A stretch of 64,000 nucleotides of DNA, from assembly GCF_005860795.2 (NCBI RefSeq), contig NZ_CP058350.1, positions 2,696,501 through 2,760,500 on the forward strand, read 5' to 3'. The notes below the pieces were generated by a model that was not told the DNA's origin, searched no databases, and was given only the letters and a program-made list of their open reading frames with translations. The translations under genes were made by a program, and so were the position numbers. Below are positions 1,356-22,893 of this stretch, one piece after another. How positions within the stretch are numbered: position 1 is the stretch's first letter; each line of letters opens with the position of its first letter. The DNA comes from Peteryoungia desertarenae. Its GTDB lineage: Bacteria > Pseudomonadota > Alphaproteobacteria > Rhizobiales > Rhizobiaceae.

Positions 1356-2709
1356 CATTCTGGTCGTTGATGACGAAGAGGATATTCGCGAAATCGTGTC
1401 CGGTATTCTGAGCGATGAGGGGCATGAGACGCGAACGGCGCATGATGCAGACAGCGCGCTTGCAGCGATTTCTGATCGCATGCCGCGCCTTTTGTTCCTC
1501 GATATCTGGATGCAGGGGAGCCGTCTCGACGGTCTCGCGCTGCTGGACGAGATCAAGTCCCGTTATCCGGACCTGCCGGTTGTGATGATATCTGGCCATG
1601 GAAACATCGAAACGGCGGTCTCGGCGATCAAGCGTGGTGCTTTCGACTTCATCGAAAAACCATTCAAGGCAGACCGCCTGATCCTCATTGCTGAGCGGGC
1701 GCTTGAAAACTCAAAGCTGAAGCGCGAGGTTTCTGATCTGAAGCGTCGCACCGGTGATGCCATTGAGCTGATTGGGACGTCGGTCGCCGTGTCACAGCTT
1801 CGCCAGACCATCGAGAAGGTGGCGCCGACAAACAGCCGCATCATGATTTTCGGCCCCTCCGGGTCCGGCAAGGAACTCGTGGCGCGGATGATTCACAAGC
1901 GTTCCAGCAGATCTGCCGGTCCCTTCGTGTCCCTCAACGCCGCAGCGATCACGCCGGAGCGTATGGAACTGGCCTTGTTCGGCTCCGAAGGCTCTCCTGG
2001 GCAGCCGAGGCGCATCGGTGCGTTGGAAGAGGCCCATAGGGGGATTTTGTATCTCGACGAGATCGGCGAAATGCCGCGCGAAACGCAGAACAAGATCCTT
2101 CGGGTTCTGGTCGAACAACAGTTCGAGCGAGTAGGTGGAACAAAGCGGGTCAAGGTCGATGTCCGGATCATATCCTCTTCCGCCTATAACCTTGAAGGCC
2201 TTATTGCCGAAGGTCGCTTCCGCGAAGATCTGTTTCATCGCCTCGCTGTCGTTCCGATCAAGGTACCAGCGCTCGCGGAGCGGCGTGAGGACATTCCGTT
2301 CCTCGTCGATCTCTTCATGCGCCAGATCTCCGAACACGCCGGCATCCGCCAGCGAAAGATCGGTGACGACGCGATGGCGGTGCTGCAAGCCAATGACTGG
2401 CCCGGCAACATCCGGCAGCTCCGCAACAACATCGAGCGCCTGATGATTCTTGCTCAGGGCGACGGTCCCGATACCCCGATTACGGCGGAGATGCTTCCGC
2501 CTGACTTGTCGGACATGCTGCCGAAGGTGTCTGCGCGAAATGACAGTCACATCATGACCTTGCCTCTGCGTGAGGCTCGCGAAATGTTCGAGCGCGATTA
2601 CTTGATTGCCCAGATCAACCGATTCGGCGGCAATATCTCGCGCACGGCAGAATTCGTAGGGATGGAGAGGTCCGCCCTCCATCGCAAACTGAAGTCTCTT
2701 GGCGTATAA
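1345..2709 (+). CDS. ntrX: NtrX response regulator, AAA+ and Fis domains, lacking GAFTGA
   Basis: This 454-residue DNA-binding response regulator is the partner of NtrY. The receiver domain spans about residues 1-120, with Asp53 (LLFLDIWMQ) as the likely phosphorylation site. An AAA+ domain follows with Walker A GPSGSGKE (about 170-177) and Walker B LYLDEIGEMP (about 235-244). A Fis-type helix-turn-helix closes the protein (NISRTAEFVGMERSALHRKL). The start at 1345 (MASDILVVDD) is chosen over the in-frame ATG at 1282 because the receiver begins there. Where sigma-54 activators carry GAFTGA, this protein has GSEGSPGQPRRIGAL (about 213-227). It therefore probably does not act as a conventional sigma-54 activator; that is inference from the missing motif. 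Confidence 0.95.
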   Translation: MASDILVVDDEEDIREIVSGILSDEGHETRTAHDADSALAAISDRMPRLLFLDIWMQGSRLDGLALLDEIKSRYPDLPVVMISGHGNIETAVSAIKRGAFDFIEKPFKADRLILIAERALENSKLKREVSDLKRRTGDAIELIGTSVAVSQLRQTIEKVAPTNSRIMIFGPSGSGKELVARMIHKRSSRSAGPFVSLNAAAITPERMELALFGSEGSPGQPRRIGALEEAHRGILYLDEIGEMPRETQNKILRVLVEQQFERVGGTKRVKVDVRIISSSAYNLEGLIAEGRFREDLFHRLAVVPIKVPALAERREDIPFLVDLFMRQISEHAGIRQRKIGDDAMAVLQANDWPGNIRQLRNNIERLMILAQGDGPDTPITAEMLPPDLSDMLPKVSARNDSHIMTLPLREAREMFERDYLIAQINRFGGNISRTAEFVGMERSALHRKLKSLGV

Positions 2710-2766
2710 ACTGCTGATCGGTGCCCGAGGCGGATTCGCCTTGGGTTAGTCGCCTGGAGAGGCATC

Positions 2767-4143
2767 ATGAAAGTAATCATCTGCGGGGCGGGACAGGTCG
2801 GCTACGGCATCGCCGAACGGCTATCCCTTGAGGACAACGACGTATCGGTCATCGATACATCCGCGTCGCTCGTCGCCCATATTACAGAAACCCTGGACGT
2901 ACGCGGCTATGTCGGTCACGGCGCGCATCCGGATGTGCTGGCACGAGCCGGTGCAGATCAGGCAGACATGATCATTGCGGTCACGCTCTATGACGAGATC
3001 AACATGATCGCATGTCAGGTGGCGCACTCGCTGTTCAACGTGCCCACTCGTATTGCCCGTATCCGCTCTCAGAACTATCTGCGGCCGGAATACTCCGACT
3101 TGTTCAGTCGCGATAATCTGCCTATTGATGTGGCAATCTCGCCTGAGATCGAAGTCGGCAAGATGGTTTTGCGCAGGATTTCTTTCCCTGGTGCAACGGA
3201 TATAGTTCGGTTCGCTGACGATAATGTCGCCATGCTCGCAATCGAGTGCATGGAGGATTGCCCGGTGGTCGACACTCCGCTGCAGCAATTGAGCGAACTC
3301 TTCCCGGACTTGATGGCGACCGTGACGGCTGTTTACCGAAACGGAAAGCTGCGCATCGTCAATTCTCGGGATCAATTGTCCGTCGGCGACCTCGCCTATG
3401 TCATATGCCAGCGGGATCATGCCCGCAGAACACTCGGCCTGTTCGGGCATGAGGAGCAGGAAGCTGGGCGGATCGTCATCGCGGGTGGTGGCAATATTGG
3501 TTACTATGTTGCCCGCACCATAGAAGAGATGCAGCCAAAGACCCGGATCAAGATCATCGAAAGCGACCGAGAACGGGCCATTTCGGTGTCAGAACAGCTC
3601 CGTATGGGCATTGTCCTGCACGGTTCTGCACTGGACCAGAATATTCTGCAGCAGGCTGATATCGAGAATGCCGATTTGATCGTGACCCTCACGAACAATG
3701 ACCAGACAAACATCTTGAGCGCGGCTATGGCGAAACGACTCGGCTGCAAGTCCGGCATGGTATTGATCAATAATCCATCCTTTCATGATCTGGCGGGATC
3801 AATTGGGATTGATGCCTATATCAACCCAAGGGCTGTCACGATTTCCCGGGTGCTGCAGCATGCCCGCAAGGGGCGAATCCGTGCTGTCTATGCGGTTCAA
3901 AAAGGCATGGCGGAGGTCATCGAGGCCGAAGCGCTGGAAACATCGCCCCTGGTTGGCAGACCGTTTCGGGAGCTGGAACTGCCGGCCGGTCTGCGTATCG
4001 GCGCAATCTACCGCGACGGTACGGTGATCCGCCCGAACGGCGACACCAAGATCAAGGCGAAGGACCGCGTCGTCATCTTCGCTACCGCAGGTGCAGTCAA
4101 GGATGTGGAACAGATGTTCCGCGTGTCGATCCAATATTTCTGA
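2767..4143 (+). CDS. trkA: Trk potassium uptake regulatory protein TrkA
   Basis: This is the cytoplasmic NAD-binding gating subunit of a Trk/Ktr potassium uptake system, 458 residues long and full length for the family. It is a tandem duplication of RCK (TrkA-N/TrkA-C) units. The first Rossmann motif is MKVIICGAGQVGYGIAE at residue 1, and the second is RIVIAGGGNIGYYVAR near residue 236. The start follows a strong GGAGAGG ribosome site. It lies 57 bp after ntrX and 15 bp before the aminotransferase, so it may be part of the same transcription unit. The integral membrane partner TrkH is not in this window. Confidence 0.95.
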   Translation: MKVIICGAGQVGYGIAERLSLEDNDVSVIDTSASLVAHITETLDVRGYVGHGAHPDVLARAGADQADMIIAVTLYDEINMIACQVAHSLFNVPTRIARIRSQNYLRPEYSDLFSRDNLPIDVAISPEIEVGKMVLRRISFPGATDIVRFADDNVAMLAIECMEDCPVVDTPLQQLSELFPDLMATVTAVYRNGKLRIVNSRDQLSVGDLAYVICQRDHARRTLGLFGHEEQEAGRIVIAGGGNIGYYVARTIEEMQPKTRIKIIESDRERAISVSEQLRMGIVLHGSALDQNILQQADIENADLIVTLTNNDQTNILSAAMAKRLGCKSGMVLINNPSFHDLAGSIGIDAYINPRAVTISRVLQHARKGRIRAVYAVQKGMAEVIEAEALETSPLVGRPFRELELPAGLRIGAIYRDGTVIRPNGDTKIKAKDRVVIFATAGAVKDVEQMFRVSIQYF

Positions 4144-4158
4144 AAGACCAAAACACAG

Positions 4159-5022
4159 ATGCCGAGAATAGCTTACGTCAATGGACGCTATCTTCCCCAC
4201 AAGGACGCCTCCGTCCATATCGAGGATCGAGGTTATCAATTCGCTGATGGCGTTTACGAGGTTTGTGAAGTCCGGCATGGCGTGATCGTTGATCTGACCC
4301 GCCATCTTGATCGTCTGGACCGATCGCTTTCGGAACTGCGTATCCACCATCCGATGTCACGGGCGGCTTTGACACATGTGATCCGCGAGGTGCTGCGTCG
4401 CAATCGGGTACGCAACGGTCTTTTCTATCTTCAGGTGACGCGTGGTGTTGCGCGACGCGATCACGTTTTCCCCGGTCCCGATGTCAAGCCGTCGCTCGTG
4501 ATTACGGCAAAGAGCACTGATCCAAAGGTTATTGCTCTGAAAAACGCGAATGGCATCAAGGCGATCACCCTTGCCGATAACCGCTGGTCCCGTGTCGACA
4601 TCAAGAGTGTGGGTCTTTTGCCAAACGCCATGGCGCGACAGCAGGCAAAGGAAACAGGTGCGCAGGAGGCGATTTACGTCGATTCCGAAGGCATGGTGAC
4701 GGAAGGTGCGGCAACGAATGTCTGGATCGTGGATGCCGCTGGTCGGCTTGTTACTCGACCGGCGGAGCAGGGCATCCTGCGTGGCATTACGCGAACGACA
4801 CTCATCGATGTCTCCAGGCATCTCGGCATGGAAATTGAGGAGCGACGCTTCTCCCGCGATGAGATGCTGAAAGCGCGTGAGGTCTTCATCACCGCCGCAA
4901 CAAGCATCTGTTTTCCGGTCGTTGAGATCGATGGCGTGGTGATCGGAAATGGTCACCCCGGTACCGTTGCGGACAAAATTCGCTCGACTTTTTTCGACAT
5001 TGCGGAAAAGACAGCGATTTGA
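4159..5022 (+). CDS. Class IV aminotransferase, D-amino-acid aminotransferase type
   Basis: This is a PLP-dependent fold-type IV aminotransferase of 287 residues. The likely reaction is transfer of an amino group between D-amino acids and 2-oxoacids. Family hallmarks are the N-terminal AYVNGRYLPHKDASVHIEDRGYQFADGVYE, read in pieces, and the PLP lysine in DIKSVGLLPN (near residue 153). The EGAATNVWIVD segment and TTLIDV region also fit. Branched-chain aminotransferases and aminodeoxychorismate lyases share the fold, so substrate specificity cannot be fixed from sequence alone. The D-amino-acid assignment rests on overall resemblance and on the position between trkA and hfq, where rhizobia usually carry this gene. 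Confidence 0.85.
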   Translation: MPRIAYVNGRYLPHKDASVHIEDRGYQFADGVYEVCEVRHGVIVDLTRHLDRLDRSLSELRIHHPMSRAALTHVIREVLRRNRVRNGLFYLQVTRGVARRDHVFPGPDVKPSLVITAKSTDPKVIALKNANGIKAITLADNRWSRVDIKSVGLLPNAMARQQAKETGAQEAIYVDSEGMVTEGAATNVWIVDAAGRLVTRPAEQGILRGITRTTLIDVSRHLGMEIEERRFSRDEMLKAREVFITAATSICFPVVEIDGVVIGNGHPGTVADKIRSTFFDIAEKTAI

Positions 5023-5131
5023 TACCAACTTTGCGGTGAAGGGGCGGGGGGACATAAATGCCCGACACACCTGACCAGTTCTAAGAATAATGACACCGGC
5101 AATGACCGGCAAAAACGAAAGAAGCGGCGCG

Positions 5132-5383
5132 ATGGCGGAACGTTCTCAGAATCTGCAGGATCTATTTCTCAACACAGTACGCAAACAGAAGATTTCACTG
5201 ACCATCTTTTTGATCAATGGCGTGAAACTGACCGGTGTTGTAACGTCATTCGACAATTTCTGCGTTCTTTTGCGGCGCGACGGGCATTCCCAGCTGGTCT
5301 ACAAACACGCGATCTCCACCATCATGCCCGGTCAGCCGATGCAGATGTTCGAGAGCGAAGACACGCAATCCGGACAGGACTGA
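5132..5383 (+). CDS. hfq: RNA chaperone Hfq
   Basis: Hfq is a hexameric Sm-like RNA chaperone that pairs small RNAs with mRNAs; here it is 83 residues. The Sm1 region reads [14 protein letters not shown] followed by [17 protein letters not shown] residues, and the Sm2 signature [10 protein letters not shown] is present. The start at 5132 ([10 protein letters not shown]) is preferred to an upstream in-frame ATG at 5090 because Hfq begins with this AERSQNLQD sequence, and GAAAGAAG provides a ribosome site. hflX follows 67 bp downstream, the classical hfq-hflX pairing. Confidence 0.97.
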
Positions 5384-5450
5384 TATCATCACCAGCCGCG
5401 ACATAACAAACGAATCGATCATCCCGGAGGACGAAAAGCGCCGGGATGAT

Positions 5451-6785
5451 ATGCGGGCGCTCGTGCTTGTACCTGTCTTGAAACAGGCGAAGCCCCAGCC
5501 GCTGCCCGAAGGTGCGCCACCGGTTCCTAGCCGCTCGAACGAAGCGCGCCTCGAAGAGGCGGTCGGCCTTGCCCGCGCCATCGATCTCGCCATCGTTCAG
5601 GGTTTGATCGTCACGGTCAGCCAGCCGCGCCCGGCGACACTCATGGGTTCCGGCAAGATTGCTGAGGTCAAGGCGCTGCTCGACGAGCATGACGCCGGCC
5701 TCATTATCGTCGATCATCCCCTGACACCGGTGCAACAGCGCAATCTGGAGAAGGAATGGGGCGCCAAGGTCATCGACCGGACCGGCCTCATCCTCGAAAT
5801 CTTCGGCCGCCGTGCCTCCACCAAGGAAGGCACGCTGCAGGTCGAGCTTGCGCATCTCAACTACCAGAAGGGCCGTCTGGTCCGTTCCTGGACCCACCTT
5901 GAACGCCAGCGCGGCGGCGCGGGCTTCATGGGCGGTCCGGGTGAAACCCAGATCGAAGCCGACCGCCGACTGCTTCAAGACAAGATCGTCAAACTGGAGC
6001 GCGAACTCGAACAGGTGGTGCGCACCCGCCAGCTTCATCGCGCGAAGCGCCGCAAGGTGCCGCATCCGATCGTGGCACTCGTTGGCTACACCAATGCCGG
6101 CAAGTCGACGCTGTTCAACCGGATCACCGGTGCGGGTGTGCTGGCTGAAGACATGCTGTTTGCGACGCTGGACCCGACGCTGCGCCGCATGAAGCTGCCG
6201 CATGGTCGCACCGTGATCATGTCGGACACCGTCGGCTTCATCTCCGACCTGCCCACCCACCTCGTCGCCGCCTTCCGCGCGACGCTGGAAGAGGTGCTCG
6301 AAGCCGATCTCATCCTCCATGTCCGCGACATGTCGGATCCTGATAACGGTGCCCAATCGGCAGATGTCCTGCGCATCCTCGATGATCTCGGCATTGACGA
6401 GAAAGAGCGTTCCGAGCGCATCATTGAGGTATGGAACAAGATCGATCGTCTTGCCACAGAGAATCATGACGGTTTGTTGCAAAAGGCGGCGGGGCGCCCA
6501 AATGTTCTGCCCGTTTCGGCTATCTCGGGCGAAGGCGTGGAAACGCTATTGGCCGTAATCGCCGAACGCCTATCGGGCGTTTTAACGGAAGCGGCCATCA
6601 CTGTCCCGGCTGACAAGCACGCGGTTGTATCCTGGCTCTATGAGAACGCAATCGTCGATGAACGCCGAGACCAGGATGATGGCTCTGTGGAACTCGATGT
6701 TCGCCTCACTGATCGGCAGGCAAACGAGCTTGAACGCAAGCTTGGAGCCCCAGCTCCCCGTGCAAAGGAAGATTGGGAGCGGTAG
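5451..6785 (+). CDS. hflX: Ribosome-associated GTPase HflX
   Basis: HflX is a GTPase that binds 50S/70S ribosomes and can split stalled ribosomes. The 444 residues contain the N-terminal HflX domain with LMGSGKIAEV, a linker with GGAGFMGGPGETQIEADRR read in part, and the G domain. G1 is GYTNAGKST, G3 is DTVGFISDLP and G4 is NKID. The start is uncertain: the frame is open upstream to the end of hfq (for example RDITNESIIPEDEKRRDD), but no ATG, GTG or TTG codon occurs in the stretch I read back to about 5330. The ATG at 5451 is therefore used. Its ribosome site is weak, consistent with coupling to hfq. Confidence 0.93.
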   Translation: MRALVLVPVLKQAKPQPLPEGAPPVPSRSNEARLEEAVGLARAIDLAIVQGLIVTVSQPRPATLMGSGKIAEVKALLDEHDAGLIIVDHPLTPVQQRNLEKEWGAKVIDRTGLILEIFGRRASTKEGTLQVELAHLNYQKGRLVRSWTHLERQRGGAGFMGGPGETQIEADRRLLQDKIVKLERELEQVVRTRQLHRAKRRKVPHPIVALVGYTNAGKSTLFNRITGAGVLAEDMLFATLDPTLRRMKLPHGRTVIMSDTVGFISDLPTHLVAAFRATLEEVLEADLILHVRDMSDPDNGAQSADVLRILDDLGIDEKERSERIIEVWNKIDRLATENHDGLLQKAAGRPNVLPVSAISGEGVETLLAVIAERLSGVLTEAAITVPADKHAVVSWLYENAIVDERRDQDDGSVELDVRLTDRQANELERKLGAPAPRAKEDWER

Positions 6786-6820
6786 CAGCTCCCGGGTCGG
6801 GATTGCACTTTCTCCACGCT

Positions 6821-6834
6821 TTGATCCACGTCAA
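6821..6834 (+). promoter_or_regulatory. FixK/FNR-type box upstream of bchE
   Basis: The sequence TTGATCCACGTCAA matches TTGA-N6-TCAA, the core recognised by FNR/FixK proteins, with four of five outer bases matching the TTGAT/ATCAA consensus on each side. Its centre (6827.5) lies 60 bp before the bchE start codon. If the site acts at the usual -41.5 position, transcription would begin near 6869. This would place bchE, encoding an oxygen-independent enzyme, under low-oxygen activation. The match is seen; the function is inferred. Confidence 0.65.
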
Positions 6835-6845
6835 GTGATCGCATT

Positions 6846-6879
6846 CCTCAGTGTGTCAACTTTTGTTTACACACTGAGG
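6846..6879 (+). promoter_or_regulatory. Perfect palindrome with PpsR/CrtJ-type box before bchE
   Basis: The core TGTCAACTTTTGTTTACA (6854-6871) is an exact TGT-N12-ACA, the recognition pattern of the photosynthesis repressor PpsR/CrtJ. It sits inside a larger perfect inverted repeat: CCTCAGTGTGT (6846-6856) pairs with ACACACTGAGG (6869-6879) around a 12-base spacer. The core overlaps the predicted -10 region of a promoter driven from the FixK-type box, a good place for a repressor. The right arm also shares GAGG with the bchE Shine-Dalgarno sequence GAGGAGG (6876-6882), so a transcript starting further upstream could hide the ribosome site in a hairpin. Confidence 0.7.
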
Positions 6880-6887
6880 AGGTGGTC

Positions 6888-8513
6888 ATGCGCATCGTCT
6901 TTATCCATCCGAACTATCACTCCGGCGGCGCCGAGATTGCCGGTAACTGGCCGCCTGCCTGGGTCGCCTATCTCGGCGGCGCGCTGAAGTCCGCAGGCTT
7001 TACCGACATCCACTTCCTCGATGCCATGACCAATGACATGACCGAGGACCGGCTGCGTGAGGAATTGCGCCGCCTGCAGCCGGACTTGATCGGCTGCACC
7101 GCGATCACCCCGTCGATCTACATGGCCGAGCGCTGCCTCGAAATTGCCAGGGAAGTCTGCCCTCAGGCACTCCGGGTCCTCGGCGGCATCCATGCCACCT
7201 TCATGTACCAGCAGGTCTTGACCGAGGCGCCCTATATCGACGTCATTGTCCGTGGCGAAGGCGAGGAGATCATCGTCGAACTCGCCCGCGCTTATGCCGC
7301 CGGCAACTGGAAAGAGACGAGAGCGGGCATCAAGGGCCTCGCCTATATCACCGACGACGGCAAGATCATCGCGACGCCTGCCGCACCCACCGTCAAGAAC
7401 TTCGATGCCGTCGAGCCGGATTGGACCCTGCTCGAATGGGAGAAATACATCTATGTGCCGCTTGGCGTCAGGGTCGCGATCCCCAACATGGCGCGGGGCT
7501 GCCCCTTCACCTGCTCGTTCTGTTCTCAGTGGAAGTTCTGGCGAGATTATCGCATCCGTGATCCGAAGAAGGTGGTCGACGAGATCGAGAAACTGGTCAA
7601 CGACCATCAGGTCGGCTTCTTCATCCTCGCCGACGAGGAACCGACCATCAACCGCAAGAAGTTCATCGCCTTTTGCGAGGAGCTGATCGCCCGCGGCCTG
7701 CCGGACAAGGTCAAATGGGGCATCAACACCCGTGTCACCGACATTATCAGAGACGAGGAATATCTGGCCCTCTATCGCAAGGCCGGCCTCGTGCATGTCT
7801 CGCTCGGCACGGAAGCCGCCGCCCAGCTGAAGCTCGACCGCTTCAACAAGGAAACCAAGGTCGCCGAGAACAAGAAGGCGATCCGCCTGCTCCGTGAGGC
7901 TGATATCTTCACCGAAGCGCAGTTCATCGTTGGTCTTGAGAATGAGACGGCGGAGACGCTGGAGGAAACCTATCGCATGGCGCGCGACTGGAACCCGGAT
8001 CTCGCCAACTGGGCCATGTATACGCCCTGGCCGTTCTCGCCGCTCTTCCAGGAACTCGGCGACAAGGTCGAGATCTTCGACTTCTCGAAATACAATTTCG
8101 TGACACCGATCATGAAGCCGGATGCCATGGATCGTGCCGAGCTGCTCGACCGTGTGATGAACAATTACCGCCGCTTCTACATGATCAAGGCGCTCTTCCA
8201 TTATCCATGGCGCGGCAAGGGTTTTCGCCGCCGCTATCTGCTCGGCTGCCTCAAGGCCTTTCTCAAGGCTGGCTTCGAGCGCAAGTTCTATGATCTCGGC
8301 AAGCACAATTACTGGGGCCCGCAATCGAAGGAGAAGGTTGATTTCGGCTTCGATATGAGCCGCAAGATCGCACCAGCCCAGATGGCCGACTGGCAGGCGG
8401 CGTCCGACCGCGCAAGTCAGCTGCGTGCCCGCAAGGCAGGCGAGGCGGAAGAGGCACGAACGCCCGTCATGGCCTGCGGCGGAGGGCCGGAGAGCCACGA
8501 TGCCCACGTCTGA
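6888..8513 (+). CDS. bchE: BchE, anaerobic Mg-protoporphyrin IX monomethyl ester oxidative cyclase
   Basis: This 541-residue B12-dependent radical SAM enzyme forms the fifth ring of bacteriochlorophyll without oxygen. The N-terminus ([20 protein letters not shown]) and following cobalamin-binding-type domain (to about residue 150) are typical of BchE. The radical SAM cluster motif is GCPFTCSFC with Cys205, Cys209 and Cys212 (CxxxCxxC). The ATG at 6888 follows SD GAGGAGG with 5-nt spacing and is preferred over an in-frame GTG at 6882. It overlaps bchJ by 14 bp. FixK-type and PpsR-type sites lie upstream. Other B12-radical SAM enzymes share the fold, but the partner bchJ and the regulatory sites support BchE. 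Confidence 0.92.
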
Positions 8514-9159
8514 CAACGGACTGGCAAGGCTTTTCGCCGATGCCGAGCGACCGGAAACGCCTCCCGCTCGTCCGCCAGCCCGCATCGGTCCGAACGCGAT
8601 CATCCAGACAGGTGAGGCCCTTTCCGCCCTCGACGGGCCTGGTGCCGCACGCCTGATTTTCGAGGCAGCCGGGTTAGGGCGATACATCGGTGTTGTGCCG
8701 ACGACGATGATAGACGAGCGCGAACCCGTGGCGCTCTTTGCCGCCGTCCAGGCGACGCTCCCGCCCGCAGAGGCCGACCGCGTCTTGGCCGATGCCGGAC
8801 ATCGGACGGGACATTACATTCTGGAAAATCGCATCCCGCCGATTGCGCGGCAAATCCTGCCGAAGCTGCCGCCCGGGCTGTCCTCGCGTCTGCTCGTATC
8901 CGCCATTGCCCGCCACGCCTGGACCTTTGCCGGCAGTGGGAGCTTTGAGGGCAGGGTTACCGGATGGACACGTCCGGTGGTGACCCTGGCCATCGCCGCA
9001 AACCCGCTCGCCACGGCCGGATGCCCTTGGCATGGTGCGGTCTTCCAGCGGCTGTTTGCGAGCCTGTGCGGGAATGTGGGATCGGTCCGGCACAGTCAGT
9101 GCTGCGCCCGTGGGGACGGCTTTTGCGTCACCCAGCTCAGTCTGGCTCCGATACCTTGA
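8500..9159 (+). CDS. bchJ: BchJ, V4R-domain bacteriochlorophyll synthesis protein
   Basis: This 219-residue protein has a C-terminal V4R (4-vinyl reductase) domain. BchJ accompanies BchE in purple bacteria and was first proposed as the 8-vinyl reductase; later work gives that reaction to BciA/BciB, so BchJ may instead carry or present the porphyrin substrate. Visible features include [14 protein letters not shown], a central [12 protein letters not shown] segment, and the V4R cysteine region [19 protein letters not shown] followed by [12 protein letters not shown]. The ATG at 8500 follows GGAGGG and lies inside the end of bchE, so the genes are probably translated together. The coding frame ends at 9159, with no further bch gene after it. 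Confidence 0.86.
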
Positions 9160-9317
9160 TGGTGGTCGCGACCGCTTCAAATGCCTTTCTGCAAAGAACT
9201 GGATCACGAGAAACGGCTGTGTCTGTTCAGCCAAACTGACCCCGATGGCCAAAAACCATTCATTCCCAGGCGGGTCACGGGAAGGGAAAAATCCGACGGA
9301 ACCGGTAGACCGTATCT

Positions 9318-9331
9318 ACGACAATAGTCGT
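9318..9331 (+). repeat. Short inverted repeat upstream of the DedA gene
   Basis: ACGAC-AATA-GTCGT is a perfect 5-bp inverted repeat with a 4-base centre, 30 bp before the DedA-family start codon. The surrounding 9160-9361 interval has no credible gene. It could be a small operator or chance. Confidence 0.3.
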
Positions 9332-9361
9332 TTGATGCGTTGAGTTATGTGGTGAAGTGAC

Positions 9362-9970
9362 ATGGACGGTTTGTCTGAGCTGATAAGAGCGTACGGGACA
9401 TGGATCTACATCCTGCTCTTTGCATACTGTATGTTGAAAAGCGGCAGTCTCCCCTTGTTCGCGGGCTATGCAGCTCATGCACAAGCTTTGGATTTGCCCC
9501 TTGTTTTGGTCGTGACCTTTGCGGGTGGCTACCTGGGTGACGAAGCACGGTTCTTCATTGCCAGACGATACGGAGACGCCTGGTTGAAGAGGTGGCGGTT
9601 CGCCGAGAGGACATATTCAGGAGCGAGAGCCCTGATTGCAAACTACGGCAGTGCCTACATCTTTATCTACAGATATCCCAAGGGCATGCGGACCATAGGG
9701 GCGCTCCCGGTCGGACTCGGAACCATGTCGTGGGGCAGGTTTACGGTCTTGAACGCAGCGTCGGCCATGCTTTGGACGGCCTTGCTGGTCTCCGTGGGTT
9801 TCGTTTTCGGCTCACAGGTGGAGGAGGCTGTGGAAGCAGGGTGGGGCTTTGCAAGTGTTGTTTTGCTTGCCGCTATGGTCTTTCTCATAGCTTTCGCGTG
9901 GTGGCGGATAAACAAGATTGGTACGCACAGCCCGAACATTCAGGAGGATCTCGTTCGCAGTCATCAATAG
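9362..9970 (+). CDS. DedA-family (VTT domain) membrane protein
   Basis: This is an inner-membrane protein of 202 residues. The DedA family is tied to lipid carrier/flippase functions and membrane homeostasis. Hydrophobic segments occur at about 12-30, 43-60, 130-150 and 160-182. The signature GGYLGDEARFFIARRYGD and the loop RYPKGMRTIGALPVGLG with TVLNAASAMLWT match the VTT/SNARE-associated core. The family's charged residues are present. It stands alone between bchJ and the minus-strand mazG. The ATG at 9362 is the only good start before the VTT domain. The substrate is unknown. Confidence 0.8.
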   Translation: MDGLSELIRAYGTWIYILLFAYCMLKSGSLPLFAGYAAHAQALDLPLVLVVTFAGGYLGDEARFFIARRYGDAWLKRWRFAERTYSGARALIANYGSAYIFIYRYPKGMRTIGALPVGLGTMSWGRFTVLNAASAMLWTALLVSVGFVFGSQVEEAVEAGWGFASVVLLAAMVFLIAFAWWRINKIGTHSPNIQEDLVRSHQ

Positions 9971-10007
9971 CGCTGCGGCTGACTGCGGCACGCCGTTTGC
10001 CCGCCGT

Positions 10008-10826
10008 CTATCTGGTCTTCGCCGCCTGCCAGAGCTCTTCCATGCGTTCCAGAGAGGCGCCGTCCAATGTTTCACCTGATGCTTGAAGAGATGTCTCTAT
10101 ATAACTGAATCGATTTCGGAACTTTGTGTTTGTTCCGCGCAGGGCCTGCTCCGGTTCCGCCCCCACATGCCGGCCAATATTGACCAGTGCAAAGATCAGA
10201 TCGCCGAGTTCGTCCTTGACCTTGTCCGGTCTGTTTTCGGCAAGCGCCTCGCGCAATTCGCCGATCTCCTCCTCGATCTTGTCGAGGATGGGGGCAGCCT
10301 CCGACCAGTCGAAGCCGACCTTGGCCGCACGTTCCTGCAGCTTCAGGGCTTCGGTGAGGGCCGGAAATGACCGCTGCACCGATCCGAGATAGCCGGTGTC
10401 GGGATCAGCCGCCGAGCCACGGGCTGCGCGGCGTGCGAGACGTTCGGCCTTTTCCTGCTGCTTGATCTTGTCCCACTGCGCCTTGACCGCCTCCGGCGTA
10501 TCGGTATCAGAGCGGGCAAAGACATGCGGGTGGCGGCGGATCATCTTATTCGTGATCGCCTCCACCACGTCGCCGAAGGAGAACAGGCCTTCCTCCTCGG
10601 CGATACGGGCATGGAAGACCACCTGCAGCAACAGATCCCCCAGTTCCTCGCAGAGATCATCCGGGTCCTTGCGCTCGATGGCGTCGGCCACCTCATAGGC
10701 CTCCTCGATCGTATAGGGTTTGATCGTCTCGAATGTCTGGACGATGTCCCAGGGGCAGCCGGTCTCAGGCTGGCGCAGTGCCGCCATGATCTCGAGCAGG
10801 CGATTGATGTCCTTGGAGGCTTCCAT
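10008..10826 (-). CDS. mazG: Nucleoside triphosphate pyrophosphohydrolase MazG
   Basis: MazG hydrolyses (d)NTPs to monophosphates and clears non-canonical nucleotides. The 272 residues contain two MazG domains. The first has GCPWDIVQTFETIKPYTIEEAYEV with the metal-binding EEAYE and ELGDLLLQVVFHARIAEE; the second has EEIGELREAL and DELGDLIFALVN. The start at 10826 (MEASKDINRLLEIM) is preferred to a longer reading from 10907 because the family begins just before this helix. It is 19 bp downstream of the deaminase gene on the same strand, so the two probably form an operon with a nucleotide hygiene theme. Confidence 0.95.
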   Translation of the reverse strand: MEASKDINRLLEIMAALRQPETGCPWDIVQTFETIKPYTIEEAYEVADAIERKDPDDLCEELGDLLLQVVFHARIAEEEGLFSFGDVVEAITNKMIRRHPHVFARSDTDTPEAVKAQWDKIKQQEKAERLARRAARGSAADPDTGYLGSVQRSFPALTEALKLQERAAKVGFDWSEAAPILDKIEEEIGELREALAENRPDKVKDELGDLIFALVNIGRHVGAEPEQALRGTNTKFRNRFSYIETSLQASGETLDGASLERMEELWQAAKTR

Positions 10827-10845
10827 GATGGTCCTGTCTGATCGC

Positions 10846-11433
10846 TCAGTTGAGGGGAATGTCGTTTTCGCCCTTGGACGACTGGTATGCGTCCGACAGG
10901 CGGTCATATTCCGCCTTGATCCGGCTGACCTGCTCGAAAAGTACGGGGCGTTCGGCGTCGTCGGCGGAGGCCACCATTTCGATCATCGCATGGCTGAGCC
11001 AGAAGGCGTTCTGCCGCCGATAGCCACCGGGTTCAAGGCCAAAGACCTCCTTGAGGATCTTCAGGTCATGCGGGATGGCAAAGGCGTCGCGGCTGTCTTC
11101 GTGGCTGAAGAAATAGTAGAAATTGTCGAAACCGGCCCAGGTGATCGCCGACATGCACATGGTGCAGGGTTCGTGCGTCGACAGAAAGATCAGATCCTTC
11201 GTATTGGGGCGCTCGCCCCGCTCGTAGAAGCGTTTCAGCGTATGGACCTCGCCATGCCAGAGCGGGTTTTCCAGCTCGTTGTTGGTTTCGGCGAGAACGA
11301 GCGACAGGTCCGACTTGCGAAGGATCGCGGCTCCGAAAACCTTGTTGCCCGCCGCAACGCCTTTGGCCGTCAGCGGCAGAATGTCGTGTTCGATCACGTC
11401 GAGCAGTCGACGGGTCAAATCGGGTGAGGTCAT
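10846..11433 (-). CDS. Zinc-dependent nucleoside/cytidine deaminase-family protein
   Basis: This 195-residue protein belongs to the cytidine/deoxycytidylate deaminase fold. The zinc site is HGE (residues 60-62, with His60 as ligand and Glu62 as proton shuttle) and PCTMC (Cys90 and Cys93). The start at 11433 (MTSPDLTRRLLDVIEHD) has a GGAGCGG ribosome site; an upstream extension to 11577 has no family resemblance. The exact substrate (guanine, cytosine, a tRNA base or another amine) cannot be read from the sequence. Position directly before mazG suggests nucleotide salvage or sanitation. Confidence 0.82.
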   Translation of the reverse strand: MTSPDLTRRLLDVIEHDILPLTAKGVAAGNKVFGAAILRKSDLSLVLAETNNELENPLWHGEVHTLKRFYERGERPNTKDLIFLSTHEPCTMCMSAITWAGFDNFYYFFSHEDSRDAFAIPHDLKILKEVFGLEPGGYRRQNAFWLSHAMIEMVASADDAERPVLFEQVSRIKAEYDRLSDAYQSSKGENDIPLN

Positions 11434-11699
11434 CTGGTGCCGCTCCGCTGTTGTGCAATGCGATACTATCGCTTGCCAAGCGACCTTCGAAAGGGAAATG
11501 ATAGGAGGTAAGCGGTTTTTCCCCTGTCGGGACCGTTGTCGCCAAGTCAGGGTAGGTCTTTGACGTCTGCGGTGCAATTTGCTCGCATCGGCAAGGGGAC
11601 TAGGACAGAAATACGCAAGCGGCAGGGCGAAGGAATTTCTGTTTCTTCAATTTCTAAGACCGGGACGCGATAGTGTCGTCCACTGGCATCGGATGATTC

Positions 11700-13142
11700 A
11701 TGGCACAGCAGGACAAACAGCTTTCTGTCTTTCCGGCCTTCTTCAAGGTCGAGAACGAGGTCGCCGCCGTTTTTGGAAACGGTGACGAGGCCTATGCAAA
11801 GGCACGCCTGTTGAAGAATACAGAAGCCCGCATCGTCGCCTATGCCGATGCTCCGGAAGCCGATTACGCCGCCTTCCTCGCTGCGAACGCCATCGAGCAG
11901 ATGTCCGAGCCTTTCGATCCTTCGCAAGTTCAGGGCGCGCGCCTGGTCTTTGCCGCAACGGGTGAGGGCGCTCTCGACCGCGAGATCGTCGCTGCCGCCC
12001 GCGCGGCCCGGATCCCGGCCAATGCGGTGGATCAGCCGGATTATTGCGATTTCTACACGCCGGCGCTCGTCAACCGTGCACCGATCGCTGTGGCCATCGG
12101 AACTGAAGGCGTGGGCCCGGTGCTCGCCCAGATGATCCGCGCCGACATCGACCGTCTGCTGCCACGCTCGCTCGGCAAGCTCGGGCGTCTCGCCAATTCT
12201 TACCGCCGCGCGGTTGATCGTCTCGTGCCCCGTGGTGCGCCGCGCCGCCTGTTCTGGCGCGATTTCTTCAAGGGCAAGGTCGCTGATCACGTCGAGGCCG
12301 ACGAGATCAGCCTGGCCCGCCGTGAAGCCACCCGTCTCCTGAAGGGCGTTGCTGCCGATCGGGTCGAAGGCCGCGTTTTCCTCGTCGGTGCCGGCCCGGG
12401 TGCCGAAGACCTGCTGACGCTGCGCGCCCATCGCCTGATGATGGAATGCGACGTCATCGTCTATGACGCGCTGGTGCCGCGCGAAGTGGTCGATATGGGC
12501 CGCCGTGACGCCGAGCGCATTCCCGTCGGCAAGCGCAAGGGCTGTCATTCGAAGTCGCAGAGCGAAATCAATGCGCTGCTCGTCGAGCTTGGTCATGCGG
12601 GCAAGCGTGTCGTCCGTCTGAAGTCGGGTGATCCGCTGGTCTTCGGTCGTGCCGGCGAAGAGATGGCAGCGTTGCGCGATGCGGGCATTGCCTACGAGAT
12701 TGTGCCCGGCGTAACCTCGGCACTCGCCGCCGCCGCAGACTTCGAACTGCCGCTGACGCTGCGCGGCGTTTCCTCGTCGCTGGTCTTCACGACCGGCCAC
12801 GATTTGCAGGGTAATGTGTTGCCGGATTGGGCGCGGCTTGCGCTGTCGGGCGCAACCGTTGCCGTCTATATGGGCCGCACGGTCGCGGCCTCCGTCGCCG
12901 AGCGTCTGATGCAGGGCGGCCTCGCCGAGGATACGACGGTTGCCGTTGTCGAGAATGCCGGGCGCCGCGACAGCCGTCTGCTGCATGGCACGCTCAAGGA
13001 ATTGCCGGGGCTCGAGGCTCGTACCGAGTTGACCGGCCCGGTCATGGTCATTATCGGCGACGCTGTCGCCGGCGCCGATTTCAGCCGCTCCGAACCGCTC
13101 GGTGCGCGTGTCACGGCTGAACTGGAAACTGCAAGGATTTGA
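11700..13142 (+). CDS. cysG: Siroheme synthase CysG (trifunctional)
   Basis: CysG makes siroheme, the cofactor of sulfite reductase, from uroporphyrinogen III. Its activities are methylation (SUMT), NAD-dependent dehydrogenation and ferrochelation. The 480 residues have the N-terminal Met8p/CysG dehydrogenase-chelatase part (to about 215; NAD motif GNGDEAYAKARLL rather than GGG) and the C-terminal methyltransferase. The latter shows VFLVGAGPGAEDLLTLRA, VRLKSGDPLVFGRAGEE and VPGVTSALAAAA. The ATG follows GGATGATTC. It heads the operon with DUF2849, cysI and DUF934, which fits production of siroheme for the reductase encoded downstream. Confidence 0.95.
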   Translation: MAQQDKQLSVFPAFFKVENEVAAVFGNGDEAYAKARLLKNTEARIVAYADAPEADYAAFLAANAIEQMSEPFDPSQVQGARLVFAATGEGALDREIVAAARAARIPANAVDQPDYCDFYTPALVNRAPIAVAIGTEGVGPVLAQMIRADIDRLLPRSLGKLGRLANSYRRAVDRLVPRGAPRRLFWRDFFKGKVADHVEADEISLARREATRLLKGVAADRVEGRVFLVGAGPGAEDLLTLRAHRLMMECDVIVYDALVPREVVDMGRRDAERIPVGKRKGCHSKSQSEINALLVELGHAGKRVVRLKSGDPLVFGRAGEEMAALRDAGIAYEIVPGVTSALAAAADFELPLTLRGVSSSLVFTTGHDLQGNVLPDWARLALSGATVAVYMGRTVAASVAERLMQGGLAEDTTVAVVENAGRRDSRLLHGTLKELPGLEARTELTGPVMVIIGDAVAGADFSRSEPLGARVTAELETARI

Positions 13143-13144
13143 CG

Positions 13145-13459
13145 ATGGTAGATAAGGTTCTCACAGCAAACCGCCTGACCGACGGCATCGCCGTCTGGCT
13201 CGATGCCAATGGCCAGTGGACCGAGCGTCTGCAGGAAGCCTTTGTCGCGCGCCATGCCGAGGCCGTCGAAGCCCTGGAAGCCGCCGGCAAGCAGGCCTTC
13301 GCCAGCAATCTCGTGGTCGACCTCAATGTCATCGAAATCGAGGAAAAGGACGGTATCCTGCGCCCCCTTCGCCTGCGCGAACGTATCCGGGCGGAAGGCC
13401 CGACCATTGCATATGCCGAGGGTCACGGTTATGCCGACCCGGCATTCATCGCCGCTTGA
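13145..13459 (+). CDS. DUF2849 protein of the sulfite reductase operon
   Basis: This small protein of 104 residues belongs to DUF2849, which commonly sits between cysG and cysI in alphaproteobacteria. The visible pattern is TANRLTDGIAVWLDANGQW, a basic/acidic middle, and a C-terminal YAEGHGYADPAFIAA. The ATG at 13145 follows AAGGA at the end of cysG, with only 2 bp between the genes. Its biochemical role is not established; the conserved placement points to a helper function in assimilatory sulfite or nitrite reduction. No membrane segment or signal peptide is seen. Confidence 0.85.
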   Translation: MVDKVLTANRLTDGIAVWLDANGQWTERLQEAFVARHAEAVEALEAAGKQAFASNLVVDLNVIEIEEKDGILRPLRLRERIRAEGPTIAYAEGHGYADPAFIAA

Positions 13460-13474
13460 GGCTGAGGTTTAGAC

Positions 13475-15148
<1,674 letters not shown>

Positions 15149-15161
15149 GACTGGAAGAATT

Positions 15162-15674
15162 ATGACCAAGATCTGGAAAGAAACCGGTTTCGTCGATGGC
15201 GACATCTGGGTAACCGAAACGGAAGAGCGCAAGGCAGGCGAGGGCGAAAAGGCCATTCTCCCGCTGGACTCTTTCCTGGAAACCGTTGGTGAGACCAACG
15301 ATGTCGGCCTCGGCGTGCTGATTGCACCGGCAGACGACGTGAAGAAGCTTGAGCCTTATCTCGACCGTATCGCACTGATCGCGGTCGCGTTTCCGGCCTT
15401 CAACGATGGCCGTGGTTTCAGCCATGCGTCGCTGCTGCGCGAGCGTCTGCGCTATTCCGGCGAGTTGCGCGCCGTTGGCGACGTCCTGATCGACCAGGTG
15501 CCGCTGATGCTGCGCACCGGCTTCGACAGCTTCGCCGTCACCAATCCCGTCGCCCAGCGGCGGCTTGCTGATAACTGTCTCACCGGCGTCGCCCAGCGTT
15601 ACCAGCCGACGGCTCGAGGATCCGAAGCGGTTGGCGGTTTCAGCTGGCGTCGCCTCGGCTCCACTGGTGCCTGA
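15162..15674 (+). CDS. DUF934 protein of the sulfite reductase operon
   Basis: This 170-residue protein belongs to DUF934, which in alpha- and betaproteobacteria follows cysI. The conserved segments include FPAFNDGRGFSHASLLRERL, YSGELRAVGDVLIDQVPLM and GFDSFAV. The start at 15162 (MTKIWKETGFVDGD) has GGAAGA in front and lies 13 bp after cysI. An upstream in-frame start at 15027 lies inside cysI and is rejected. Annotators often call it an oxidoreductase probably involved in sulfite reduction, but its activity is not established. A hairpin follows 24 bp after the stop. Confidence 0.87.
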   Translation: MTKIWKETGFVDGDIWVTETEERKAGEGEKAILPLDSFLETVGETNDVGLGVLIAPADDVKKLEPYLDRIALIAVAFPAFNDGRGFSHASLLRERLRYSGELRAVGDVLIDQVPLMLRTGFDSFAVTNPVAQRRLADNCLTGVAQRYQPTARGSEAVGGFSWRRLGSTGA

Positions 15675-15698
15675 GACATAGAAATATCGCTATCACAG

Positions 15699-15731
15699 GG
15701 CGGCAAATTGACCTCGGTCAAGGTTGCCGCC
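15699..15731 (+). terminator. Hairpin at the end of the cys operon
   Basis: GGCGGCAA (15699-15706) pairs with TTGCCGCC (15724-15731), and inside it TTGACC pairs with GGTCAA around a 2-base loop. The stem is long and G+C rich but the following bases (TTCGCTTTA) make only a weak U tract. The inner part also reads as TTGA-N6-TCAA, which would match an FNR-type site 124 bp before fpr; the hairpin explanation is simpler. Confidence 0.5.
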
Positions 15732-15844
15732 TTCGCTTTAACGGATATCTCGGCTGCGAAATGCGCATGCCGGCTGAATTGTGGAATGGGACGGTCTGGA
15801 TTATAGGCTCTTCCCAATCGACTGAACGATAGGACCGACAGCCT

Positions 15845-16657
15845 ATGAATGCTCCTGTGAAGACCGACAACGCCGAACTGATCGTGCCCGAAGGCGTTTA
15901 TGCCGAAACGGTGCTAAGCGTGACGCACTATACCGACCGCCTGTTCCGCTTCCGCATGACCCGCCCCGCCGGCTTCCGCTTCCGCTCGGGCGAGTTTGCG
16001 ATGATTGGCCTGATGGTCGAGAGCAAGCCGATCTACCGCGCCTATTCCATCGCAAGTCCATCCTGGGACGAGGAACTCGAATTCTTCTCGATCAAGGTTC
16101 CTGACGGCCCGCTGACCCAGCATCTGCAGAAGATTAAGCCGGGCGACAAGGTGCTGATGCGCAAGAAGCCGACCGGCACGCTGGTGCTGGATGCGCTCAC
16201 CCCCGGCAAGCGCCTCTACATGTTCTCGACCGGCACCGGTATTGCGCCCTTTGCCAGCCTGATCCGCGATCCCGAGACCTATGAAAAGTTCGAGGAAGTC
16301 ATCCTCACCCATACCTGTCGCGACGTGGCGGAGCTGAAATACGGCTTCGATCTGGTTGAGGAAATCAAGAACCATGAATTCCTGGCCGAACTGGTCGGCG
16401 ACAAGCTGAAGCATTACGCAACGGTGACCCGCGAAGACTATCCATTCAAGGGGCGCATCACTGATCTGATGGAAAGCGGGAAACTCTTCGCGGACCTGGG
16501 TGTACCACCGCTGGACCCTTCGACTGACCGTGGGATGATCTGCGGCTCGACGGCCATGCTGAAGGATACGAAGACGATCCTTGAGCAGGCAGGCCTCACC
16601 GAAGGCGCCAACAACAAGCCGGCCGAATTCGTCATCGAACGCGCCTTCGTTGGCTGA
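15845..16657 (+). CDS. fpr: Ferredoxin/flavodoxin-NADP+ reductase
   Basis: This FAD enzyme moves electrons between NADPH and ferredoxin or flavodoxin. The 270 residues show the FAD-binding RAYSIASPSW motif, the FSTGTGIAPFASLIRDP nucleotide-binding loop, and a C-terminal CGSTAMLKDTK segment ending in ERAFVG. The bacterial subclass-II reductase length of about 260 residues fits. The ATG at 15845 has AGGA upstream. It is separated from the cys operon by a hairpin and has its own 170-bp leader, so it probably has its own promoter, but it may feed the reductase at 13475. Confidence 0.93.
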   Translation: MNAPVKTDNAELIVPEGVYAETVLSVTHYTDRLFRFRMTRPAGFRFRSGEFAMIGLMVESKPIYRAYSIASPSWDEELEFFSIKVPDGPLTQHLQKIKPGDKVLMRKKPTGTLVLDALTPGKRLYMFSTGTGIAPFASLIRDPETYEKFEEVILTHTCRDVAELKYGFDLVEEIKNHEFLAELVGDKLKHYATVTREDYPFKGRITDLMESGKLFADLGVPPLDPSTDRGMICGSTAMLKDTKTILEQAGLTEGANNKPAEFVIERAFVG

Positions 16658-22491: not shown

Positions 22492-22817
22492 TCACCATGG
22501 CTGTTCAAGCGGTGGGACCAAAATGCCTGACCTCGTCTTGATCCGGCTTGATCAGCATCAAGCGCCCCCATTTCTCCTCTGATGCCCTTGTCACAGTTCC
22601 TGCAAGGACCGAAGTGAATGTTTGGTAAGGTTTTGATTGGGACGCCTCAATTGCGGCGCGTTTGTGGACGTGTCAGTCTCGACGCGCATTGTCTCGAAGC
22701 ACCAATCCGAGCACATCCGTCACAGGTCGAGTGACATTTCATGCAAAGTTCGCGGTTCGCCGGAAAGTCCGATCAACGAAAGCGGACTTTGTAAATAATT
22801 GAAAATATAAAGTTTAG
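22492..22817. other. Intergenic region, 326 bp, no gene seen
   Basis: This stretch lies between the MacA-like gene and tRNA-Lys, both on the minus strand. It should hold the promoter of the exporter operon and the tRNA 3' trailer. The last 40 bases before the tRNA are AT-rich. I see no convincing reading frame, hairpin or repeat. Confidence 0.5.
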
Positions 22818-22893
22818 TGGTGAGAGCGCAGGGATTCGAACCCTGGACCTACTGATTAAAAGTCAGTTGCTCTACCGGCTGAGCTACGCTCTC
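22818..22893 (-). tRNA. tRNA-Lys (anticodon UUU)
   Basis: The minus strand folds as a complete tRNA. The acceptor stem is GAGAGCG/CGCTCTC with discriminator A and an encoded CCA (22818-22820). The D arm is AGCTCAGCCGGTAGAGC. The anticodon arm is CTGACTTTTAATCAG with anticodon TTT, and the T arm is CAGGGTTCGAACCCTG. The length is 76 bases with CCA. No intron and no insertion element is seen at its 3' end. Confidence 0.97.

Follow-up and report, generated by a model that had tools for sequence, protein, structure and literature searches.

Introduction

Two bacteriochlorophyll genes, bchE and bchJ, lie among the housekeeping genes of Peteryoungia desertarenae (Rhizobiaceae), which raises the question of whether they serve phototrophy in this bacterium, under what conditions they would be expressed, and how they came to stand between hflX and mazG. 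The pair belongs to a stretch of 64,000 nucleotides (the window; NCBI RefSeq assembly GCF_005860795.2, contig NZ_CP058350.1, positions 2,696,501 to 2,760,500 of the forward strand), and coordinates are given below as positions within it unless a genome handle (G000 for this genome) precedes them. We regard it as likely that the locus is a detached two-gene bchEJ operon of a phototroph that presumably meets low oxygen, with an FNR/PpsR switch in front of it, a history of tract exchange, and BchJ as the partner of BchE. The identities of the genes, the phototrophic character of the genome, the coexistence of AcsF and BchE, the conservation of the promoter, the co-occurrence of BchE with BchJ and the low divergence of the surrounding tract were computed here, and it is from sequence that we infer the expression pattern and the role of BchJ.

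A predicted oxygen-independent cyclase operon in a phototrophic host

The gene bchE (6888..8513, plus strand, 541 amino acids) and the gene bchJ (8500..9159, plus strand, 219 amino acids) were both named correctly in an initial annotation made from the DNA alone. BchE scores 845.4 bits against the equivalog hidden Markov model (HMM) TIGR02026 (cut-off 481.35; profile positions 1-497 of 497 covered) and contains PF02310 (B12-binding) and PF04055 (Radical_SAM), both above the Pfam cut-off, while BchJ scores 148.9 bits against the equivalog TIGR02019 (cut-off 74.3). The radical-SAM cysteines to which the initial annotation pointed, Cys 205, 209 and 212, are intact and form a CxxxCxxC motif (CPFTCSFC at 205-212); BchE is predicted to be an active cyclase that depends on B12. 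The case for the V4R cysteines that had been ascribed to BchJ is weaker: the match to V4R (PF02830; residues 175-211) reaches 17.9 bits and falls under the gathering cut-off of 31, so that it is a likeness and not a membership, and Cys175 is the sole cysteine conserved in at least 90% of 41 aligned BchJ sequences. The ATG starts at 6888 and 8500 were chosen by us within open frames that begin at GTG 6882 and GTG 8425; on this choice, bchE and bchJ share 14 nt and form a predicted two-gene operon. An Rfam scan of window positions 1-16000 gave no match.

The bchE gene is under purifying selection, with a median ratio of nonsynonymous to synonymous divergence (dN/dS) of 0.043 (the set comprised the 16 bchE carriers in which hflX, pufL and pufM are all full-length, and 11 of these had a bchJ complete enough for comparison). 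BchJ diverges far faster than BchE (median dN 0.34 in 11 genomes vs. 0.025 in 16 genomes), and the BchJ of P. desertarenae is 94% identical to that of G030, 85% to that of G037, and 53-66% to other copies in the genus.

The initial annotation would have given up its reading if close relatives had, at this locus, a non-photosynthetic B12-radical SAM enzyme that groups away from BchE in a tree. In a tree of the window protein and 47 of 80 fetched loci (the best 80 by similarity of at least 582 confirmed BchE loci), which held BchE-like sequences only and no other B12-radical SAM family, it falls inside the BchE clade; the genus clade has a support of 99 (starred), and its neighbours are L080 (a Phyllobacteriaceae metagenome-assembled genome, MAG) and L081 (a Hyphomicrobiales MAG). 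Hoeflea BchE (L084, L100), which adjoins bchG-bchP, is placed far from Rhizobium-type BchE in this tree, and Rhizobiaceae BchE therefore has more than one history. Among plasmid records, the best BchE match has 74% identity.

The host is an anoxygenic phototroph. A search of the genome, which had been proposed as a check, found pufLM, acsF, bchX, bchN and ppsR above cut-off; the pufL/pufM, BchX and AcsF matches are on the same 3.59-Mb contig as bchEJ, as are above-cut-off HMM matches to BchN, BchF, PpsR (283 bits vs. a cut-off of 275.4), BchG, BchP, BchO, CrtD, PufC, HemA and PuhA. Within the cluster, bchD and crtB are best matches that fall under their cut-offs, and the labels bchC, bchY, bchZ, bchL, bchH, bchB, bchM, lhaA and crtF, like the remaining labels used for it, rest on position and size. 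The cluster itself is without bchE and bchJ, and the window copies are the sole above-cut-off BchE and the sole BchJ match of the genome. Between the two options initially offered, it is thus the phototroph with a cyclase gene apart from its main cluster that is realized here, as 2.2 Mb of the contig separate the cluster genes from the pair (1.4 Mb in the opposite direction, should the contig be circular). The other option, acquisition or retention of the pair without phototrophy, is ruled out by the reaction-centre and cluster genes of this genome, and all 17 BchE genomes among the 63 surveyed in the genus have a reaction-centre match. Because pufLM, acsF and other cluster genes are present, bchEJ is predicted to provide a second, oxygen-independent cyclase alongside AcsF and not to be a relic.

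Distribution of BchE and BchJ

Reaction-centre matches were found in 26 of the 63 genus genomes, and AcsF likewise in 26 (25 above cut-off). BchE is above cut-off in 17, every one of which has a reaction-centre match (that of G038 being a fragment where a contig ends), and G036, in which the first 60 BchE residues stand at a contig end, would be the 18th carrier. The eight genomes with a reaction centre and no BchE are G001, G016, G022, G035, G039 (86% complete), G041, G043 and G045. With 17 of 26 genus phototrophs carrying BchE (the 18th, G036, being cut at the contig end), the initial statement that the oxygen-independent route is unusual among the relatives was overstated.

It is highly improbable that bchEJ is a non-functional leftover or works in a pathway other than bacteriochlorophyll synthesis. 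Such a reading could draw on the finding that AcsF is present in every phototroph examined (26 in the genus and 26 in the class sample described below), because of which BchE appears dispensable in many of them, and on the eight of 26 genus phototrophs that lack BchE. However, the frames and motifs are intact, purifying selection and conserved promoter boxes are evident, and among the 63 genomes bchEJ occurs only in those with a reaction centre.

The distribution of BchJ follows that of BchE: it is present in 17 of the 63 genus genomes, which are exactly the BchE carriers. In a sample of the class (389 genomes, each at least 95% complete), 26 genomes including that of P. desertarenae have a reaction centre, and among these AcsF occurs in 26, BchE above cut-off in seven and BchJ in six. 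The six are the genomes whose BchE scores at least 780 bits, while none of the 19 class genomes with a reaction centre and without an above-cut-off BchE has BchJ. The seventh BchE genome, G271, is a phototroph without BchJ; its BchE-family protein (L207, G271:C1:4010177-4011616) scores 520 bits, above the NCBIfam cut-off, but is only 32% identical to the window BchE and was set aside as a divergent paralogue rather than a typical BchE. Near bchE, a bchJ is seen in 77 of the best 80 of at least 582 BchE loci; of the other three, two (L096 and L144) run out of sequence within about 120 bp, and one (L133) has no bchJ in view. In Chloroflexus aurantiacus, the two genes are adjacent by their locus numbers, Caur_3676 and 3677, as given in a passage of PMC3150298. 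At 43 of 71 non-genus loci, none of 18 cluster genes was found in the fetched flanks, some of these loci being short contigs.

A conserved promoter with two predicted regulatory boxes

Two predicted boxes precede bchE. An FNR/FixK-type box (TTGATCCACGTCAA; 6821..6834, plus strand) spans -67 to -54 from the bchE ATG, its first base being the position at which the initial annotation began its entry, and a PpsR/CrtJ-type box (TGTCAACTTTTGTTTACA; 6854..6871, plus strand) starts at -34. The FNR-type and PpsR-type motifs used to assign TTGATCCACGTCAA and TGTCAACTTTTGTTTACA are what we take to be the respective consensus. The FNR-type box stands at -67 or -68 at all 17 genus loci, and the PpsR-type box at -34 or -35 at 16 of 17 (none in L020). 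Within 300 bp at the 71 non-genus loci, the FNR-type box was found at 56, the PpsR-type box at 60 and both at 52, compared with 2.1%, 6.8% and 1.5%, respectively, of 300-bp stretches drawn at random from these loci (n=2840). The 60 kb around the organism's own photosynthesis cluster contain no FNR-type box and six strict PpsR-type boxes. In the window, TTGATNNNNRTCAA has three matches against 0.33 expected, two of which represent one palindromic site at 22548. This FNR-type palindrome (TTGATCAGCATCAA, 22548-22561) lies near a tRNA-Lys gene (22818-22893).

The position of the FNR-type box can be compared with that of a site studied in R. sphaeroides. Passages of PMC4263372 report that FnrL and CrpK act on bchE via the T of TCAA at -57 and that changing this T lowered FnrL-driven bchE expression by approximately 90%; in the box described here, the T of TCAA is also at -57. 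Both predicted boxes, FNR-type and PpsR-type, are found at conserved positions, as would be expected of a composite promoter, and the bchEJ operon is probably oxygen-switched. Two observations weigh against such a switch: the pattern TGTN12ACA occurs at chance level in the window (seven found vs. 7.64 expected), and bchEJGP transcripts were raised in an R. sphaeroides fnrL mutant, which the authors credit to other regulators in the passage available (PMC4263372).

The site between hflX and mazG

The names ntrX, trkA, hfq, hflX, cysG, cysI and mazG are labels given by us or by the initial annotation, while the DedA-like gene, class IV aminotransferase, deaminase, DUF2849 and flavin oxidoreductase were assigned by HMM. 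On the left of the pair is hflX (5451..6785, plus strand), and on the right mazG (10008..10907, minus strand), which is convergent with hflX. The pair does sit between them as an insert, as initially described, although a gene for a small DedA-like (VTT domain) membrane protein (9362..9970, plus strand) also stands between bchJ and mazG; among ten bchE-positive loci compared, this gene is at this spot only in P. desertarenae and G037.

Comparison of the interval in related genomes, which had also been called for, showed the order hflX-bchE-bchJ in all 17 genus carriers, with mazG on the far side in 12 (in G008, G010, G024, G028 and G062 the fetched DNA is too short). The hflX-mazG gap without bchE is 29 bp in G001, which has a reaction centre, and 31 bp in G003, which has none. 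Among the 42 bchE-less genomes compared, the gap is variable, and mazG is not within 4 kb of hflX in seven. Across the genus (L153-L195), this convergent gap measures anything between 20 bp and several kb and differs in what it contains. At L074, a FAD-binding-3 family gene lies between bchJ and mazG, and in G016 and G022 a reading frame that resembles it by eye occupies the gap without bchEJ. Neither hflX nor mazG was found in the fetched DNA of the 71 non-genus bchE-bchJ loci. When mapped onto a tree of hflX from 59 genomes, the presence of bchE requires at least three changes and that of the reaction centre at least five; this tree is a guide only, because hflX is itself mosaic in P. desertarenae.

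Signs of a recombination tract

Over 6.9-16.4 kb, the window is mostly 88-97% identical to two relatives, G030 and G037. The putative recombination tract (approximately 6886..16400, unstranded, both ends approximate) takes in bchE, bchJ, dedA, mazG, the deaminase gene, cysG, the DUF2849 gene, cysI and the start of the flavin oxidoreductase gene. Identity dips within it at 11.4 kb and, in G037, around bchJ, and G030 lacks the DedA stretch. Outside the tract, identity is 72-78% at 3.9-5.1 kb and approximately 65% at 16.5 kb, and the sequences are hardly alignable beyond. Synonymous divergence (pS) from the relatives is 0.59-0.73 for the upstream neighbours ntrX, trkA and dat, which is near saturation, and 0.18-0.32 to G030/G037 for bchE, mazG, deaminase, cysG and cysI, whose base composition (GC3) is also like that of G030/G037. 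As a same-gene control, pS between P. desertarenae and G037 was divided by pS between G037 and G025, leaving out hflX, overlapping frames and frames with pS under twice the nonsynonymous value (pN) in both comparisons. Six tract genes have a median pS of 0.27 to G037 and a median ratio of 0.74, compared with 0.57 and 1.34 for 52 other genes; the tract-gene ratios span 0.59-1.04, and that of the flavin gene is 0.95. Moreover, bchE is almost as close between P. desertarenae and G030 (pS 0.26) as between G030 and G037 (0.23), whereas the corresponding values for ntrX, trkA and dat are 0.62-0.67 and 0.25-0.38. In a sliding comparison, a sudden jump in divergence at around codon 180 of the flavin oxidoreductase gene marks the right end, and hflX is mosaic in P. 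desertarenae, its synonymous divergence being low as far as about codon 300 and at the native level afterwards. These patterns suggest that a tract of approximately 9.5 kb was imported by recombination from a G030/G037-like relative, together with a second short piece from hfq to hflX. That the tract is an import, and in which direction it moved, is what we infer from these divergence values rather than a quantity computed; the tract may either have brought bchEJ in or have overwritten an older copy.

Several points count against an import. The left end is untidy, with 84-93% identity at 5.1-6.3 kb (hfq to mid-hflX) and 73% at the end of hflX. The ratio of bchE itself is 1.04, no lower than that of seven of the 52 outside genes (at most 1.05); therefore, the case for import of bchE rests on its flanks, on GC3 and on how it compares with native genes. 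The p value of 5.6e-6 for tract against other genes overstates the difference, because the tract was named after the data had been seen and its genes are not independent. Finally, a history common to bchE and pufLM was not rejected by approximately unbiased (AU) tests (p 0.119 and 0.072), which are not decisive.

It could also be argued that bchEJ is a vertically inherited genus copy and that the low divergence of the tract reflects constraint or codon bias, since all 17 genus copies sit after hflX, bchE combines low dN/dS and high GC3 with the ratio just mentioned, and some genes elsewhere are also at pS 0.3-0.45. We consider this improbable: the ratios of the six tract genes lie below the median of the 52 others, mazG, deaminase, cysG and cysI are affected as well and have GC3 near that of their mates in G030/G037 while ntrX, trkA and dat are unaffected, and divergence jumps within a single gene. 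Low divergence ratios, 0.70 and 0.75, were also obtained at window positions 42996-43931 and for a gene approximately 13 kb upstream of the window, and there may be other imported pieces in the genome.

The reverse arrangement, a foreign photosynthesis cluster beside a native bchEJ, was considered and rejected. The cluster's divergence from G025 is at the native level (median pS 0.67 over 28 genes), equal to that of the ordinary neighbours ntrX and trkA (0.59-0.67), and it is therefore the bchEJ tract that is the anomaly. The cluster (G000:C1:471573-519231; L069-L071) is nonetheless very divergent in its own right, its BchD being at most 57% identical to that of other relatives among the 120 matches listed, although its gene order is the same as in G025. 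A 9.3-kb bchC-bchXYZ-puf block (G000:C1:482678-491945) is 81% identical to G025 and the remainder 67-75%, which suggests from sequence comparison that the cluster is mosaic. Its left flank is unlike that of G025, the right flank fetched from G025 being too short for judging, and plasmid records held no close copy of its 20-kb middle part (best coverage 10%).

The role of BchJ

The strict pairing of BchJ with BchE, together with published mutant and expression results, leads us to prefer the reading of BchJ as a dedicated carrier for the BchE route, although we would put its chances at about even. According to passages of PMC3931815, no vinyl reduction was seen when R. sphaeroides BchJ was expressed in E. 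coli, and a review (PMC7242693) states in the part available that a Chlorobaculum tepidum bchJ mutant still carries out vinyl reduction and that it excretes divinyl-protochlorophyllide, the product of the cyclase. As far as these passages go, the published results speak against BchJ as the C8-vinyl reductase.

The competing explanation, which seems unlikely, is that BchJ sits in the bchE operon by coincidence and works either as an 8-vinyl reductase or as a chaperone for the pathway in general. It has on its side the NCBIfam name of the BchJ family, earlier studies of R. capsulatus mutants to which PMC3931815 refers, and a report, known from a title cited in the same paper, that BchJ and BchM bind BchH. 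Apart from the experiments already described, it has to account for the absence of BchJ from AcsF-only phototrophs, which holds for 8/8 in the genus (including a genome of 86% completeness) and 19/19 in the class sample. An AlphaFold model of BchJ (predicted local distance difference test, pLDDT, 90.9) is helical to residue 144 save for two two-residue bridges and has strands from residue 148; as strands of at least three residues are missing from the part before 148, the predicted fold is unlike that of a Rossmann reductase. A search of BchJ against solved structures yielded nothing for the single protein, and an alignment of 41 sequences gave one non-credible match (E 0.47). Against the dedicated carrier, it must be said that co-loss of BchE and BchJ is partly due to linkage, because both share one operon, and that related genomes are not independent.

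Comparison with known systems and a possible mechanism

In large part, the observation is an ordinary one. Detached bchEJ of this kind is described for Roseobacter-type phototrophs in passages of PMC12654162 and PMC6052148, which is a second reason why the initial emphasis on its unusualness went too far. Two-gene bchEJ outside the photosynthesis gene cluster occurs in Roseobacter litoralis (chromosomal bchEJ) and Dinoroseobacter shibae (Dshi_2636/2637), and D. shibae has acsF in its cluster list, as here (PMC12654162, PMC6052148 and PMC10890935, in the parts available). Unlike in these bacteria, the pair described here belongs to a rhizobial genus, follows hflX in every carrier and shows signs of exchange within the genus. 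The bchEJGP operon of R. sphaeroides and R. capsulatus shares the bchE-bchJ order, and the FNR-type site tested in R. sphaeroides has its TCAA T at the same position (PMC4263372, in part); the R. capsulatus bchE operon is under CrtJ control according to a passage of PMC6199135, and a PpsR/CrtJ-type box is present here. In contrast to that operon, bchG and bchP sit in the cluster of P. desertarenae and outside the bchEJ operon. Standalone bchE-bchJ loci of other Proteobacteria (L080-L152) are similar in that 43/71 have no cluster genes in the fetched flanks, but differ in showing no hflX or mazG there. To this known picture, the present analysis contributes a shared site in a rhizobial genus, a composite promoter, a putative recombination tract and the pairing of BchE with BchJ. 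Among the titles and passages retrieved on rhizobial bchE with acsF and on aerobic anoxygenic phototrophs, no description of this locus was found.

It is reasonable to propose the following division of labour. At low oxygen, closure of the fifth bacteriochlorophyll ring would fall to BchE, by radical SAM chemistry with B12 and with oxygen drawn from water, while in the presence of oxygen AcsF, encoded in the photosynthesis cluster, would close it; a part of PMC7242693 indicates that BchE requires B12 and obtains the keto oxygen from water and that the other cyclase uses O2. An FNR-type activator bound to the -67 box would turn bchEJ on at low oxygen, and PpsR at the -34 box would keep it repressed when oxygen is present. 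BchJ, made together with BchE, would most likely assist the BchE route rather than reduce the 8-vinyl group, and might do so by carrying or chaperoning what the cyclase takes up or releases. The operon may have arrived, or been overwritten, in the approximately 9.5-kb tract via homologous recombination through the flanking housekeeping genes. Transposon mutants of D. shibae, a comparable aerobic phototroph, are relevant to the use of two cyclases. In the passages of PMC10890935 available, acsF::Tn is yellow with Mg-protoporphyrin IX monomethyl ester (MPE) and no bacteriochlorophyll (BChl) noted, bchE::Tn is pink with BChl and MPE, and bchJ::Tn is pink with BChl; BchE contributes even in D. shibae, because bchE::Tn keeps BChl yet shows MPE.

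Implications

A more far-reaching formulation, in which bchE-bchJ is a self-contained anaerobic-cyclase cassette swapped among rhizobial phototrophs independently of the cluster, by homologous recombination across housekeeping flanks, with BchJ, despite its vinyl-reductase name, as the dedicated partner of the BchE route and dispensable to AcsF-only phototrophs, is offered tentatively, as its probability falls slightly short of even. If it is true, the low-oxygen branch of bacteriochlorophyll synthesis would be inherited in this rhizobial genus as a separate, exchangeable unit. The pairing of BchE and BchJ also makes the role of BchJ testable, since the consequences of losing it can be compared between strains that have only AcsF and strains that have only BchE. 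Within such a scheme, the oxygen range of phototrophy could shift without any change to the photosynthesis cluster.

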